A stretch of DNA of 64,000 bases from Phycisphaerales bacterium (GTDB lineage Bacteria > Planctomycetota > Phycisphaerae > Phycisphaerales > UBA1924), in contig JAJDDI010000048.1 in the NCBI GenBank assembly GCA_029260375.1, positions 1 to 64,000 of the forward strand, read 5' to 3'. Under the pieces are notes generated by a model that saw only the letters and a list, made by a program, of their open reading frames with translations, had not been told where the DNA came from and did no database searches. A program made the translations under genes and the position numbers. How positions within the stretch are numbered: position 1 is the stretch's first letter; every line of letters begins with the position of its first letter. Shown here in pieces: positions 44,958-51,793 of the stretch.

Positions 44958-45574
44958 CTCGGCCCGGCCGACAGAGCGGCGGTGGGACCGATGGGTGGAC
45001 GTCCGAGAATAGGCGTGGCCCAGAACCCGGTCAACCGCGTGTGTAGCGCTCAGAACGCCATCGTCGGGCAAGCAGGACGCGACGCCCTCGCAACCGAAGA
45101 CGGATCCAAACGCCTCGTTTCTTCGAATCACTCTAAGAAATCTGAATCTTCAGGAAGATTTGGGTGTTCAAATGGGTGCCCGAAGAAAGGTCAGGATCGT
45201 GGTGTGTGCAGGCGTGGGCTGCGGGGCCCGCCCGACAATCTCCGACTCAAGCCCTTGAGCACCCACAATCGGTGTTCTGAAGCCAAATCTGGGTGAACCA
45301 GACCCCGCCTCAGACGACCGATCAGCGCCGGAAACCGGCGCGATGCGGGTCCGACGACGAGCGTGCCGGCTCCTGCGGCACTGTATCTCCGGCGGGCTCA
45401 ACGGCCCGGCGGTCAGGATTGGCTCTCGCCCGACGGAAAGATGGCGGGAGAAAGCAGGAACGAACCGTTCGGGGCCGCACACCAAAGGCCCGGCGAACGT
45501 ACGGATACGAAGACTGGACGCGTCGAGCGGGAGGCTCTGCGGAGATCCAGGAAGGACAAGAAGGACTCTTTCGG
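44958..45574 (+). other. Long leader without a recognised gene
   Basis: About 615 bases lie between the promoter and the sigma factor start. No frame in it looks coding, and no tmRNA, RNase P, 6S RNA or known riboswitch motif was recognised. It contains a 16-base palindrome AATCTTC-AG-GAAGATT at 45145-45160 followed by a stretch with two related TGGGTG motifs, and an AT-richer segment around 45110-45180. It may be a regulatory 5' UTR or contain a small RNA. Confidence 0.4.
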
Positions 45575-46648
45575 ATGACGCAGCAAGGACCACAGAAGGC
45601 TCCGAGCCCGCTTGAGCAGGTTCGCCGGAGGCACCGGGTCGGGGTGACCCGCACGGCGGCGCCGCGCTCTTCACGCACGCCCCGCAGGCGCCTGTCCCAG
45701 GAGGACGAGCGTCTGCTCACGCAGATCCTCGCCAAGGAGCAGGATTTCATCGACTCGGAGGTCTTCCGCGAGGAGGGCGCCGAGCAGAGCATTTATGACG
45801 AGGCGCCGGACGTCGCCAAGCCGGACACCACCTGGTACCACCCGGTGATGGACGACATCACGTCGGCGCGTTCGCGAACGGTCAAGAGCACGCAGCAGGT
45901 GATCCTGACGGGCGCCGAGGAGCGGGTGCTGTTCTATCAGTTCAACTACGCCCGCTTCCGGGTGTGGAGGCTGCAGGAGGAGGTCTGGTCAAGCCCGGCG
46001 AAGAAGCCGACGCCCGAGCAGGCGCTGCTGCTGCTGGGCTGGCATCGTCGTGCCGATCGGATCCGCGAGCAGATCGCCGAGACGAACCTGGCGCTGGTGC
46101 TGGCGATGGCCAAGCGGACGCGGATGAGCGAGGTGGACTTCGCGGACCTGGTGTCCGAGGGGAACATGGCGCTGCTGCGTGCGGTGGATAAGTTCGACGC
46201 GGGGCGTGGGTTCAAGTTCTCGACGTACGCGTGCCGGGCGATTCTCAAGGCGTTCAGCCGCCAGGGGATGAAGCTCAGCAAGTACCGCCAGCGGTTCCCG
46301 ACCGACTTTGACCCGAAGCTGGAGAAGTCGGACTACCTGGAGACCAAGCGGGCGGGGTTCGAGCGGGACGCGGCCGACGAGGTCCGTCGGATCGTGATGG
46401 ACAACAGCGCGGAGCTAACGAGCGTCGAGCGGACGGTGATCGAGCACCGGTTCGGACTCGAGAGCGAGTCGGGCGAGAAGCCCATGACGCTCGAGCAGGT
46501 CGGGCAGATCATCGGCGTGACCAAGGAGCGTGTGCGTCAGATCCAGAACAAGGCGATGGAGAAGATCCGCACGCAGCTGGAAGTCAACTTCCTGGGGACG
46601 CGCGAGCCCGAGGAGGCCGAGGACGGCGCCGAGGTCGGCGCCCGTTGA
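45575..46648 (+). CDS. Sigma-70 family RNA polymerase sigma factor
   Basis: This 357-residue sigma factor has a nonconserved N-terminal part (about 140 residues), then region 2 (ETNLALVLAMAKRTRM, ADLVSEGNMALLRAVDKFDAGRGFKFSTYACRAILKAF, about residues 185-245) and region 4 (SVERTVIEHRFGLE and MTLEQVGQIIGVTKERVRQIQNKAMEKI, about 290-345). The part between them is only about 45 residues, so region 3 is reduced. That places it among group 3-like factors of planctomycetes rather than RpoD. AAGGA lies nine bases before the ATG at 45575. Targets are unknown. A terminator follows. Confidence 0.9.
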   Translation: MTQQGPQKAPSPLEQVRRRHRVGVTRTAAPRSSRTPRRRLSQEDERLLTQILAKEQDFIDSEVFREEGAEQSIYDEAPDVAKPDTTWYHPVMDDITSARSRTVKSTQQVILTGAEERVLFYQFNYARFRVWRLQEEVWSSPAKKPTPEQALLLLGWHRRADRIREQIAETNLALVLAMAKRTRMSEVDFADLVSEGNMALLRAVDKFDAGRGFKFSTYACRAILKAFSRQGMKLSKYRQRFPTDFDPKLEKSDYLETKRAGFERDAADEVRRIVMDNSAELTSVERTVIEHRFGLESESGEKPMTLEQVGQIIGVTKERVRQIQNKAMEKIRTQLEVNFLGTREPEEAEDGAEVGAR

Positions 46649-46926: not shown

Positions 46927-48090
46927 ATGACCGTCTCATCTGACGCCAGACTCGACGATACGCACACCGGTCACGTGGACCTCGACGTCTCCGCCGTCGA
47001 GAAGCACGACCCTCACGCGACGCGCTGGGGGGATTTCCTCAAGGCCACGATCAAGTTCGAGGCCTCCGACCTGATCATGAAGTCGGAGCAGCAGCCCAAG
47101 ATCCGCCTCAAGGGGCAGCTCAAGGCGCTCGACGTGCCCGCGGTCACGGGCGAGGAGTTCCTCAAGATCGCGCATCACATCCTGACGAAGGACCAGCAGG
47201 CCGACCTGCACAAGTTTGGCTCGGTTGACTTCGCGTACAACTACTCCGAGAAAAACCGTTTCCGCGTCAACCTCTTCCAGGCGCGGGGCAAGCTCTCGGT
47301 CGCGGCCCGCAACATCACCAGCAACATCCTCCCCTTCGAGGGGCTGCACCTGCCCCCGATCATGTCGGACATCGCGATGCAGCCCCAGGGCATCGTGCTG
47401 CTGTGCGGCGTGACGGGCTCGGGCAAGTCCACGACCATCGCCTCGATGCTCGACTACGTCAACGCCCGCAAGAGCGTGCACATCGTGACGATCGAGGACC
47501 CGATCGAGTACATCTTCGAGGACAAGAAGGCGACGATCAACCAGCGCGAGATCGGCATCGACTGCCTGGACTTCAAGATCGCGCTGCGGGCGCTGGTGCG
47601 TGAGAACCCGGACGTGGTGCTCGTGGGCGAGATGCGTGACCAGGAGACGTTCGAGGCGGCGCTGCACGCGGCCGAGACGGGACACCTGGTGTACGGGACC
47701 ATCCACGCCTCGAGCACGACGCAGACATTCAGCCGCATCTACGGCCTCTTCCCGCAGGAAGAGGTCGAGCAGGTCCGCAAGATCCTGGGCTACCAGATGC
47801 GGGCGTTCGTGTACCAGAAGCTGCTGCCCACGCTGCACGAGAAGATCCACCGCATCCCCGCGCTGGAGATCCTCATCGGCAACGCGGTCGTCCGCAAGTA
47901 CGTGCTCGACGAGCGCGAGGGCGACATCCGTGACGTGCTCAACACGATCGAGGCCCGACAGGTCGGGATGATCGACTTCAACGACTCGCTCGTGCGTCTC
48001 GTCGAGGAGGAGTACATCCACATGCGCGTCGCGCAAGAGAACTCGCCCAACGTGGACGACCTGATGATGAAGCTCAAGAAGCTCAAGTGA
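46927..48090 (+). CDS. pilT: PilT-like type IV pilus retraction ATPase
   Basis: PilT is a hexameric ATPase that drives pilus disassembly at the inner membrane. This 387-residue protein has an N-terminal PAS-like domain (FLKATIKFEASDLIMKSEQQ, then VDFAYNYSEKNRFRVNLF), Walker A GVTGSGKST (about residue 160), the Asp box IVTIEDPIEYIF, Walker B with VVLVGEMRDQETFEAALHAAETGH and the His box GTIHASSTT. The signature AIRNLV near the C terminus of classical PilT is not seen, so it may be a PilT relative (PilU-like or planctomycete type). GGAGG lies ten bases before the ATG. It is the first gene of a three-gene operon. Confidence 0.88.
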   Translation: MTVSSDARLDDTHTGHVDLDVSAVEKHDPHATRWGDFLKATIKFEASDLIMKSEQQPKIRLKGQLKALDVPAVTGEEFLKIAHHILTKDQQADLHKFGSVDFAYNYSEKNRFRVNLFQARGKLSVAARNITSNILPFEGLHLPPIMSDIAMQPQGIVLLCGVTGSGKSTTIASMLDYVNARKSVHIVTIEDPIEYIFEDKKATINQREIGIDCLDFKIALRALVRENPDVVLVGEMRDQETFEAALHAAETGHLVYGTIHASSTTQTFSRIYGLFPQEEVEQVRKILGYQMRAFVYQKLLPTLHEKIHRIPALEILIGNAVVRKYVLDEREGDIRDVLNTIEARQVGMIDFNDSLVRLVEEEYIHMRVAQENSPNVDDLMMKLKKLK

Positions 48091-48142
48091 CCCGAGTCGT
48101 CCCCCCTTTCGCTCCCAAACCCTCCACCAGGAAACTCCCCCG

Positions 48143-49909
48143 GTGAGCACCTTCACAGAACCAACGACCCTGGCCTCGATCCTCCCGCCCGGTAGCGGGC
48201 TGCTGACCCTCGGCGAGGCGGCCCACCAGCTCGTCTCGTGGTGGAAGCCGCTGCTGCTGCTTGCGCCGTTCGTCGCGTGGGCGTGGCTGATCTCCAACGT
48301 CTTTGACAAGCACGCGTCCCGGTTCTTCCTCGGACGCGAGAAGTGGAACGCGATCCACCTCATCGCGGGCATGCTCGCCCTGGCGGCGGGCTTCCTCATG
48401 CCCGTCCCGGGCGTCGGCGGGTTCCTCGCGGGGTTCGCGGCGGTGCTGCTCATCCTCGGGCTTGATGTGGGGCTCTTCGCCGGCATCACCAACCGCGACG
48501 AACGCGTCCCCGAGAGCCAGCGCCTGAGCCTGGACTTCTCCAAGCTCAGCGAGGCCCGCGACGCCCGCTCAGAGAGCAAGCAGCAGGCGACTGTCCAGCT
48601 TGAGATCAAGAACGCCTCGGGCATCGCGGTCCGGGCGCCGCAGAAGGACTCCCCGGAGTACAACGTCCGGGCCAACGCGGAGCAGATCTTCATCAAGGCG
48701 AGCCAGGTGCGGGCGTCGCAGGTGGACTTCGCGCCCGCGAGCGAGTCGGCCTACGCCGCGTCGTACCTGATCGACGGCGTCCGCCAGGCGGGCGACGCGA
48801 TCCCAACGGGCGAGGCGCTGAGCCTGATCGATTTCTGGAAGTCGTGCGCCGAGCTGGACCTGAAGGACCGGCGGCGGAAGCTCTCGGGCAAGATCAAGGT
48901 CTCGGGCGGCGCCGGCGAGTCGGGCGTCAAGATCGTGACCAGCGGGTCCAAGAACGGGATGCGTCTGACCATGCTCTTCGACCCGGACAAGGCGGTGCGT
49001 CGCCCGCTGGAGAAACTCGGGTTCCTCGATCAGCAGCTCGCCGACATGAAGGCGCTGGGCGAGATCGAGGGCGGCGTGGTGCTGCTGGCGGCGCCGAGCG
49101 ACCACGGGCGCACCACCACGGGGTACGCCGTGCTCAACCTGCACGACGCGTACACCCAGAACGTCCAGACGGTCGAGGTCGAGAAGGAAGACTCGCTCGA
49201 GGGCGTGCGTCAGATCGAGTTCAAGCCGATCGAGGACGGGCCCGACTTCGCGTCGACCGTTCGGTCGGTGCTGCGGCGCGACCCGGACGTGGTGAGCGTG
49301 ATGGAGCTGCCCGACGTCGAGACGGCCAAGGAGATCGCCAAGGCGGACCTGGCCCGGTCGCGGGTGTATGTGTCGATCAAGGGCGACGGGGCGATGGCCT
49401 CGGCGCAGCTGTGGGTCAAGGCGGTGGGCGACGCGAAGCTCGCGGGCAACGGCCTGACGGGCCTGGTCGCGCAGCGGCTGCTGCGGAAGCTGTGCGAGAA
49501 CTGCCGCGTCCCCTACCAGCCGCCGCCGGAGATCCTGAAAAAGCTCGGGCTGCCCGCTGACAAGGTCAAGCAGCTGCACAAGAAGGGCGGGCAGGTGCTC
49601 ATCCGCAACAAGCCCGAGGCGTGCCCGGTCTGCCAGGGCCTGGGGTATGTCGGCCAGACCGGCGTGTTCGAGGTCTACCAGCTCGACGACGAGATGCGCT
49701 CGCTCGTGGTCAAGCAGGACTGGATCGGTCTGCGCAACGCGCTCCGCAAGACGCAGCGTCCATCGATCCAGCAGGCCGCGCTTCGCAAGGCCGTCGAGGG
49801 CGTGACGAGCATCGAGGAGGTGATGCGGGTGACCGCGTCGAGCACTTCCAAACCAAGTTCCAAGAGCAAGCCAGCCAAGTCGAGCGAGGCCCCGGCCAAC
49901 GCCGGGTAA
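48143..49909 (+). CDS. Membrane-anchored GspE/PilB-like protein with degenerate ATPase motifs
   Basis: This 588-residue protein starts with GTG and has about three N-terminal helices (LLLLAPFVAWAWLISNVF, IHLIAGMLALAAGFLMPV, GFLAGFAAVLLILGLDVGLF), not found in normal GspE. Its C-terminal 370 residues align by eye with GspE/PilB: LDFWKSCAELDLKDRRRKLSGKI, LGFLDQQLADMKAL, and the zinc-binding LCENCRVPY...CPVCQGLGYVGQTGVFEV near 449-505. The nucleotide motifs are altered: Walker A reads APSDHGRTTT (no GK), the Walker B/RD motif reads VMELPD and the His box reads SIKGDG. It is thus probably a pseudo-ATPase scaffold. It follows pilT by 52 bases. Confidence 0.8.
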   Translation: MSTFTEPTTLASILPPGSGLLTLGEAAHQLVSWWKPLLLLAPFVAWAWLISNVFDKHASRFFLGREKWNAIHLIAGMLALAAGFLMPVPGVGGFLAGFAAVLLILGLDVGLFAGITNRDERVPESQRLSLDFSKLSEARDARSESKQQATVQLEIKNASGIAVRAPQKDSPEYNVRANAEQIFIKASQVRASQVDFAPASESAYAASYLIDGVRQAGDAIPTGEALSLIDFWKSCAELDLKDRRRKLSGKIKVSGGAGESGVKIVTSGSKNGMRLTMLFDPDKAVRRPLEKLGFLDQQLADMKALGEIEGGVVLLAAPSDHGRTTTGYAVLNLHDAYTQNVQTVEVEKEDSLEGVRQIEFKPIEDGPDFASTVRSVLRRDPDVVSVMELPDVETAKEIAKADLARSRVYVSIKGDGAMASAQLWVKAVGDAKLAGNGLTGLVAQRLLRKLCENCRVPYQPPPEILKKLGLPADKVKQLHKKGGQVLIRNKPEACPVCQGLGYVGQTGVFEVYQLDDEMRSLVVKQDWIGLRNALRKTQRPSIQQAALRKAVEGVTSIEEVMRVTASSTSKPSSKSKPAKSSEAPANAG

Positions 49910-49948
49910 CGCCAGGCTTCACCGAATCGAAGCATCGAGGAGTCAGCC

Positions 49949-51793
49949 ATGCTGATCGTGTTCAACCTGCTCGTGGTCGCCGGAGTGTTGGGGCTCGGGT
50001 ACCTCTGGATGACCCGGGGGTTCTTCAACGCCTTCCTGCACCTGCTGTGCACGCTCGCGGCGGGCGCCATCGCGTTCGCCTTCTGGGAGCCGCTCTCGCA
50101 CCTGCTGCTGGGCGTGCTGCCCACGTCCGGGTTCGCCCGGTTCCTGCACGGCATGAGCTGGGGCATCGGACTGCTGGTCCCGTTCCTGCTCTCGCTGATT
50201 GTGCTGCGGGTGATCCTGGACAAAACCGTCAAGGCCAACGTCACGCAGGCGACCGCCGTGGACTACGCCGGCGGGATCATCTGCGGCGGGGCGGCGGCGG
50301 CGATCTCCGTGGGCTTCCTGGTCCTGAGCATCGGGTACTTCCGCCTGAGCACGGGCTTCCTGGGCTACCAGCCGGCGTACTACTCCGAAGCGCGCAACGG
50401 GAGCATTGTCCGCAAGGACAAGCTCTGGCTGCCCGTGGACTCGATCGTCGCGAAGCTATACGGCTCGATGAGCGAGCACGCGCTGGCCTCCAGCGAGCCG
50501 CTGACCAAGTGGCGCCCGAACGTCGAGCTCACCGGCTTCACCGCCCGGATGAGCCCGGGCAACGGCGCGGGACGCAACACGTTCAACCTCGACGACTTCA
50601 GCCTCTTCCGCGCGTACACCGTCGGGGCGCCCAACACGCCCGCGCGGGACCTGCTCTCCGACACGTTCGATGAGACCCCGCAGACCTACCAGGACCTCAG
50701 CGGACAGAGCGTGGCATCCGGCCAGCTCTACGGCTACATCCTGGACTTCCGCGCCGGCGCCAAGGAAGACTCCAAGGGCGCTCAGGTGCTCATGTCCAAC
50801 GGACAGATCCACCTCATCGCCGAGAAGACCGACGACAGCGCCCGGGGCCCCCGCTCGCAGACGATTTTCCCGATCGCGAGCGTCAGCCAGGCGCAGGCCA
50901 GCGACGGCGACCTGTTCGGGCGCTGGCGGTACGACGCCGAGGACGTCTTCATCGCCTCGGTCGGCGGCGCCTCATCGGTCAAGATGGCCTTCGAGTTCAT
51001 CGTCCCCACCGGGTACACCCCGATCGCGATCAGCGTCAAGAACGCACGCCTCTCGCTCGACGACGAGGCCCCCGCGGCCAAGCCCACGGCCTACGCCAAC
51101 GCGAGCCGGCGTGACGCGGCGATCACCTCGGGCGCCCTGATCAAGGGCGGCGCCGAGGTCTCGCTGGACGAGACGGAATCCGTCATCATCGACGGCGCCT
51201 CGGTCCAGACCAACATGGGACGCGATCTCCCCCCGCCCGGCGTGACCATCTCCCACCGCCTGGGGCACACCCTCGACCGCCAGACCGCCAATCGCGGCCT
51301 CACCGTAGAGAAGGACGGGAAGGACAACGCCATCTTCGGCGGCAGCGGCTCGTTCTCAGAAGAGGAGGCCAAGGCCGGACGCTCGGGCGAGCGCGACTTC
51401 CGCGTCGAACGCTTCGGCGTCGCGCCCGACCAGAACATGGTTCAGATCGTCGTCTCGGGCGACGACATGCCCGCCAACCTCCTCGGCACGGTCGTGCGCT
51501 CCCTCGACGCGGACCTCACGCCCCGCCTGGTCGATACCAACGGCAACTTCTACGACGCCGTGGGCTGGGTCTACGAGGACAAGGAGGGTGTCTGGATCCG
51601 TTTCACGCCCTCGGACACCATCGGGTCGCTCAGCGAGCTGCCCAAGACGCTCTCACGGGCCCGCACCGATCAGAACCTGCGTCTGCTCTTCCTGGTGAGC
51701 AAGGGCGTTGAGATCCAGCATTACGTGTTCGGCGAGAAGGCGATCCTGACCTTCGAGCCCCCGTTCGAGTGCGACCAGAACCAGAGCGGCTGA
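49949..51793 (+). CDS. CvpA-like membrane protein with large extracytoplasmic domain
   Basis: The first 130 residues of this 614-residue protein resemble the CvpA/colicin V production family: four helices with LLVVAGVLGLGYLWMTRGFFNAFLHLLCT, AAGAIAFAFWEPLSHLLLG and AVDYAGGIICGGAAAAISVGFLVLSIGY. The remaining 480 residues appear extracytoplasmic and mostly beta, with no recognised motif (examples MAFEFIVPTGYTPIAISVKNA and AVGWVYEDKEGVWIRFTPSD). No signal other than the helices is visible. AGGAG lies seven bases before the ATG. It follows the pseudo-ATPase by 39 bases. A link to pilus or envelope function is inferred from the operon. Confidence 0.7.
   Translation: MLIVFNLLVVAGVLGLGYLWMTRGFFNAFLHLLCTLAAGAIAFAFWEPLSHLLLGVLPTSGFARFLHGMSWGIGLLVPFLLSLIVLRVILDKTVKANVTQATAVDYAGGIICGGAAAAISVGFLVLSIGYFRLSTGFLGYQPAYYSEARNGSIVRKDKLWLPVDSIVAKLYGSMSEHALASSEPLTKWRPNVELTGFTARMSPGNGAGRNTFNLDDFSLFRAYTVGAPNTPARDLLSDTFDETPQTYQDLSGQSVASGQLYGYILDFRAGAKEDSKGAQVLMSNGQIHLIAEKTDDSARGPRSQTIFPIASVSQAQASDGDLFGRWRYDAEDVFIASVGGASSVKMAFEFIVPTGYTPIAISVKNARLSLDDEAPAAKPTAYANASRRDAAITSGALIKGGAEVSLDETESVIIDGASVQTNMGRDLPPPGVTISHRLGHTLDRQTANRGLTVEKDGKDNAIFGGSGSFSEEEAKAGRSGERDFRVERFGVAPDQNMVQIVVSGDDMPANLLGTVVRSLDADLTPRLVDTNGNFYDAVGWVYEDKEGVWIRFTPSDTIGSLSELPKTLSRARTDQNLRLLFLVSKGVEIQHYVFGEKAILTFEPPFECDQNQSG

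Follow-up and report, generated by a model that had tools for sequence, protein, structure and literature searches.

Introduction

The locus described here is best approached through three families of known components, which are the GspE/PilB/PilF assembly ATPases, the PilT/PilU ATPases of type IVa pili and CvpA, the Colicin V production protein. PilT carries a signature motif, AIRNLIRE. In the PilT/PilU pair one of the two partners may be catalytically inactive and yet must be present (PMC6821130, PMC6762196). How far the structural role of a GspE/PilB-type ring can be told apart from its catalytic role is a question otherwise addressed by point mutants. A trio of genes in the planctomycetes, which are known for their odd cell envelopes, separates these two roles and presents a natural experiment, in which an anchored secretion ATPase is intact in related lineages and, in the Phycisphaerae, is apparently dead but kept together with a working PilT.

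The trio and its surroundings

The trio lies within a window of 64,000 nucleotides, the whole stretch of DNA that was analysed, and the closest named relatives of the locus are MAGs of Phycisphaerales. The three products are referred to as P1 (P0001, the pilT protein), P2 (P0002, the middle protein) and P3 (P0003, the third protein), and the features of the locus are as follows.

46927..48090, + strand: pilT-type ATPase P1, 387 aa (open reading frame; catalytic motifs all intact, AIRNLIRE motif replaced by VVRKYVLDE)
48143..49909, + strand: membrane-anchored pseudo-GspE P2, 588 aa, GTG start (open reading frame, Pfam, structure match)
48242..48496, + strand: three predicted transmembrane helices of P2, aa 34-118 (model; positive-inside pattern)
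49082..49129, + strand: degenerate Walker A region of P2, aa 314-329, LLAAPSDHGRTTTGYA, with Lys changed to Arg323 (alignment)
49298..49315, + strand: degenerate GE-RD motif of P2, aa 386-391, VMELPD (alignment)
49373..49390, + strand: degenerate His box of P2, aa 411-416, SIKGDG, with His changed to Lys413 (alignment)
49493..49633, + strand: retained zinc tetracysteine of P2, C451, C454, C494 and C497 (alignment)
49949..51793, + strand: CvpA-like membrane protein P3 with an extracytoplasmic part, 614 aa (open reading frame, model, Pfam matches of orthologs)
49958..50332, + strand: four-helix CvpA-like domain of P3, aa 4-128 (model, Pfam)
50597..51769, + strand: tandem beta-sandwich extracytoplasmic region of P3, about aa 217-607 (model; no confident structural match)

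All three genes share a strand; 52 bases separate pilT from P2 and 39 bases P2 from P3, and purine-rich ribosome-binding sites precede the genes for P2 and P3. On the 5' side the same strand carries a gene for a sigma-70-type factor (window 45293-46648), and on the 3' side rplI, ssb and pth are found on the opposite strand. No promoter- or terminator-like site at the trio locus rose above chance. The sigma factor has a long N-terminal extension, and its gene lies close to the trio in 48 of 80 relatives, for the most part on the 5' side and on the same strand.

A GspE/PilB fold with a degenerate active site

P2 matches the T2SSE family (PF00437) with 133 bits against a cut-off of 24.9 (E 1e-38) and is 26-30% identical to structures of GspE, PilB and PilF. 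Residues 172-566 have the PilB/GspE fold, with PilF of Thermus (5oiu) aligning over 381 residues at a Z of 39.0 and an rmsd of 3.2. The protein nevertheless stays far under the cut-offs of the GspE/PilB equivalog models TIGR02533 and TIGR02538 (189 versus 630 bits). In the alignment to the known structures GPTGSGKTTT becomes APSDHGRTTT, VGEIRD becomes VMELPD and STLHT becomes SIKGD. Loss of each catalytic residue had been proposed for confirmation by such an alignment, and it is seen for the Walker A Lys (R323), the Arg of the RD pair, the Asp of the Asp box (Val instead) and the His of the His box (K413), but not for the Glu of the GE-RD motif, E388, which is kept along with E345 of the Asp box, the Gly and Thr of the P-loop and the four zinc Cys. 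The model of P2 (pLDDT 89.5) has N-terminal helices at 34-60, 65-84 and 90-118, the soluble N1 domain of GspE/PilB being replaced by three membrane helices, and the charge pattern of 70 orthologs gives an N-out/C-in topology. The sequence-only reading, which had described a GspE/PilB fold with zinc-binding cysteines, a Walker A motif without GK, VMELPD and SIKGDG in the places of the VGEIRD-type motif and the His box, and a gain of about three N-terminal membrane helices, is borne out on all of these points. An intact P-loop elsewhere in P2, which was named as evidence against it, was looked for and none was seen, the degenerate site occupying the canonical position in the fold. On the evidence of the alignment, the ATPase site of P2 is confirmed to be degenerate.

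The same picture extends across the Phycisphaerae, where residues were surveyed in 117 distinct P2 sequences and in 20 further ones picked mostly for divergence. The Walker A Lys is absent from all 137 (117/117 and 20/20), its position being taken by Arg in 92 of the 117, by Leu in 8, by Gly in 7, by Val in 4 and by others, among them Gln, Ser and Met, in the remainder. At the His position the seven commonest residues, which cover 112/117 sequences, do not include His, which appears in one of the 20 further sequences. Position 388 is acidic in 104/117 (Glu 73, Asp 31), and each zinc Cys persists in no fewer than 116 of the 117 sequences and in 19 of the further 20; L092 and L251, which depart from this, belong to the same genus. 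Is P2 then really inactive? With Arg at the position of the Walker A Lys and with E388 retained, the protein could have a non-canonical site for ATP hydrolysis, as the prevalence of Arg and of an acidic residue at 388 would allow. However, the remaining relatives place such varied residues at the Lys position, the His and the Asp-box Asp have gone as well, and the zinc part is under tighter constraint than the ATPase core, and we regard hydrolysis of this kind as very unlikely.

The constraint on P2 can be gauged from comparison with two congeners, against which the whole gene has dN/dS values of 0.18 and 0.34, with 0.10 and 0.12 for the zinc/C-terminal part and 0.27 and 0.35 for the ATPase core. 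By these ratios the gene is under purifying selection, which is strongest in the zinc/C-terminal part, and this selection together with conservation throughout the order rules out a decaying pseudogene. That the catalytic residues are lost and yet the protein is preserved suggests that P2 is a structural partner and not an engine.

The PilT protein and the question of action in trans

P1 passes the PilT/PilU model TIGR01420 of NCBIfam (372 versus 319.1 bits), and the intact motifs that had been read in it are upheld, with the Walker A Lys, Walker B Glu and His present both here and in 123/123 orthologs. Within the segment that corresponds to AIRNLIRE the Asn is changed to Lys across most of the trio-PilT lineage. 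The same genome encodes three other PilT-like proteins, two of which retain the NL(I/V)R core and one of which sits between two pilB/gspE-type genes. In a tree with five other PilTs from genomes of the family, one of them from this same genome, the trio PilT forms a separate clade with a support of 100. Many genomes of the phylum that have no P2 also encode a protein of the trio PilT lineage, so that PilT does not need P2 everywhere, and this counts against a PilT-coupled module.

Among the recurrent neighbours of the trio none resembles a pilin, PilC/GspF or secretin (PilQ) gene, in a search made without pilin or secretin models; the T2SSF matches listed lie on other contigs, and the earlier statement that no pilin, PilC or PilQ gene is nearby agrees with this. 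The question therefore arises of whether the trio acts in trans on a type IV pilus or type II secretion system encoded elsewhere in the genome. PilT would then be an additional ATPase for retraction, and the pseudo-GspE, tethered to the membrane, would serve a shared platform as its regulator or docking subunit. The absence of linked pilin and platform genes, coupled with several such sets elsewhere, makes this a strong rival. The genome has 15 T2SSE matches, all on other contigs except P1 and P2, as well as 15 T2SSF matches, T2SSF is present in 16/16 genomes tested, and the trio has no linked gene for a cargo or a filament; pilT genes are, moreover, often unlinked from other pilus genes. Against it, the genome is already supplied with its three other PilT-like ATPases, the trio PilT belongs to its own clade with an altered AIRNLIRE, and we know of no type IV pilus machine with a conserved membrane anchor on its ATPase or with a CvpA partner. 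Weighing these points, we consider action in trans possible but on the unlikely side. A role as a defence system was also considered and rejected, since PADLOC gave only weak generic P-loop matches.

The CvpA-like protein

P3 scores 16.8 bits against Colicin_V (PF02674), which is under the gathering cut-off of 29.3, and 62 of 72 orthologs match the family at E <= 0.01, with a best value of 7e-9. The model (pLDDT 92.6) has four N-terminal helices (4-23, 25-56, 70-93 and 102-128) followed by two beta-sandwich domains, and the charge pattern indicates that the protein is probably N-out/C-out. In the Phycisphaerales these two domains represent about 400 extra extracytoplasmic residues. With both domains together as the query, neither Foldseek, with probabilities of no more than 0.23, nor VIA-align, with a best Z of 5.2 (MPT63), gave a confident structural relative, and the extracytoplasmic part had no sequence match in the PDB. 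Relatives of P3 in other lineages are mostly about 190-380 residues in all, with the large part short or missing. The description of P3 as a CvpA-like part joined to a large extracytoplasmic domain thus holds for this genome but not for the other lineages, and the large part, being typical of Phycisphaerales, is not the conserved core. Two further observations come from families that are here given the GTDB-based family codes (f1, f32, etc.) of the genome search. In f4 (L060, L063) the CvpA-like protein has about 415-420 residues, with no second beta-sandwich and with a hydrophobic segment at its end, and in f73 (L198:5716-6426, L199:6256-7002) the CvpA-like gene is followed by a gene for a membrane protein that has an extracytoplasmic part of its own.

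Linkage within the order and beyond the class

Orthologs of P2 were found in 39 of the 40 genomes of a first set, its own genome included, the exception being G007, which is 87% complete. The order was sampled with 151 genomes, of which the 137 of high quality were counted, and these hold P2 in 134, P3 in 135 and, at a strict threshold, the PilT type in at least 129. All three genes are missing from G344, G427, G433 and G436, four genomes that are incomplete or fragmented. P3 follows P2 in all 80 named relatives. The upstream sequence is long enough to place pilT in 73 of them, and there it is no more than 400 bp from P2 in 52, further upstream in 7 and off the locus in 14, a looser linkage than that of P2 with P3 and one that counts against a PilT-coupled module. 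Seven genomes of the family lack a pilT directly before P2; all seven have an orthologous pilT (580-651 bits and 70-80% identity, paralogs reaching at most 275), which is 1.7 kb upstream in G004 and elsewhere in the other six. In G021 P2 is at a contig end, so that its linkage to pilT cannot be judged. From gene content and order, pilT, P2 and P3 are shown to be a core set of the order and to be usually adjacent, and the co-occurrence in planctomycetes that had been proposed as a check of the three-gene set is thereby found, whereas the absence of conserved linkage, which had been named as evidence against the set, is not.

In a sample of the phylum, profiles of P3 and P2 detect the family in f32, f39, f53, f73 and f82; most of the other families gave no match. 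In f39, f53, f82 and f73, and in one f32 genome, the genes run pilT-gspE-cvpA. Further f32 genomes have either gspE-cvpA with pilT elsewhere or, in G063, G174 and G230, pilT-gspE with cvpA elsewhere, and the lack of an adjacent pilT in most f32 genomes again counts against coupling to PilT. In genus g68 a conserved 107-residue protein follows gspE (L194:9437-9757, L195:8265-8585, L196:6405-6725), with cvpA elsewhere. Three conserved genes without a common function might stay together by chance synteny, and the neighbouring housekeeping genes are indeed syntenic in about half of relatives. However, only the trio is found in the same order in different families of the phylum and in unrelated neighbourhoods, and an accident of this sort is hardly credible.

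A further alternative makes the CvpA-like protein the main partner of the pseudo-GspE, which would be a scaffold or nucleotide sensor in envelope homeostasis, and leaves PilT as no more than a historical neighbour. The invariable adjacency of P2 and P3 is in its favour, pilT having moved away in roughly a quarter of cases, as are the retained Gly and Thr of the P-loop, with which a nucleotide could still bind. Enteric bacteria, for their part, need CvpA to resist bile salts (PMC6705877). On the other side, pilT stays beside gspE in f73 and in the three f32 genomes in which it is cvpA that has moved, and a pilT ortholog persists in each of the seven genomes checked. We judge a partnership from which PilT is absent to be decidedly unlikely.

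Origin of the degenerate form

Outside the class the GspE-like protein tells of an earlier state. In f32, f39 and f53 the ATPase site is intact in 16/16 sequences, Walker A Lys included, and these proteins too have a membrane segment and a signal-peptide-like N-terminus, as expected for an N-out topology. In two f56 genomes (L217, L218) pilT adjoins an intact GspE with a signal-peptide-like N-terminus and hydrophobic N-terminal segments; no CvpA-like gene was detected near this pilT-gspE pair. The GspE-like protein is degenerate in f73 and f82. A third f73 genome (G306) has a degenerate GspE-like gene next to pilT (L225:3871-5211), whose open reading frame is without a membrane anchor, which counts against reading the module as membrane-anchored. 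The claim of a pseudo-ATPase therefore stands for the Phycisphaerae but is specific to lineage, the relatives in f32, f39, f53 and f56 being intact and likewise equipped with a hydrophobic N-terminal anchor. Because the same set outside the class has an intact, anchored GspE, the dead form is derived, and by this outgroup comparison of sequences the intact form is taken to be ancestral. Catalysis would have been lost once according to the P2 tree, in which all degenerate forms fall in one clade, or twice according to the PilT tree, in which f73/f82 group with the intact f32 family with a support of 100. Forcing P2 into the arrangement of the PilT tree is mildly rejected (AU 0.03), but without the ATPase core it is no longer rejected (AU 0.23).

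Proposed function

The reading that we tentatively prefer, at a likelihood somewhat short of even, is that the trio is a conserved envelope module of the Planctomycetota in which a PilT motor, an inner-membrane partner derived from GspE and a CvpA-like protein work together. In such a module P2 would still form a ring, with 18 membrane helices if it is hexameric, and the task of the ring would be structural, namely to dock the PilT hexamer at the membrane, to act as its stator or to relay conformational changes. In the Phycisphaerae lineage PilT would supply the ATP-driven motion, and P3 would be the membrane element or transducer, with an accessory periplasmic domain in the Phycisphaerales. 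By analogy, the docking of PilT by the pseudo-ATPase that the sequence-only reading put forward is plausible, and that interpretation is supported in part; the module would resemble PilT/PilU in having two coordinating hexamers, one possibly dead but required. The more specific proposal of a PilT-powered envelope machine without a pilin filament, in which the GspE-derived ring and the CvpA-like protein form a stator or transducer and the Phycisphaerae ring is a pseudo-ATPase for mechanical coupling only, is rather unlikely.

Comparison with known systems

A literature comparison that left out the Planctopirus limnophila 'type II secretion' cluster Plim_0401-0410 found no description of the trio. 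The components, which belong to the GspE/PilB/PilT family, are known, and what appears to be new is their arrangement with a class-wide pseudo-ATPase. P2 is like the GspE/PilB/PilF assembly ATPases (PF00437, TIGR02533, TIGR02538) in the fold of aa 172-566, in its zinc tetracysteine and in its domain order, but differs from them in the loss of the Walker A Lys, Asp-box Asp, RD Arg and His and in having three membrane helices where they have N1. With PilT/PilU of type IVa pili the likeness lies in two ATPases of the PilT/GspE superfamily that are encoded together. However, the partner in the trio is GspE/PilB-like and membrane-anchored and not a PilT paralog, there is no linked pilin, PilC or PilQ, and the AIRNLIRE motif of the trio PilT is altered. 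Finally, P3 shares with CvpA (PF02674) the four-helix membrane domain, through a weak but consistent Pfam match, whereas the Phycisphaerales protein is set apart by its extracytoplasmic part of about 400 residues and by its place in an operon with secretion-type ATPases.
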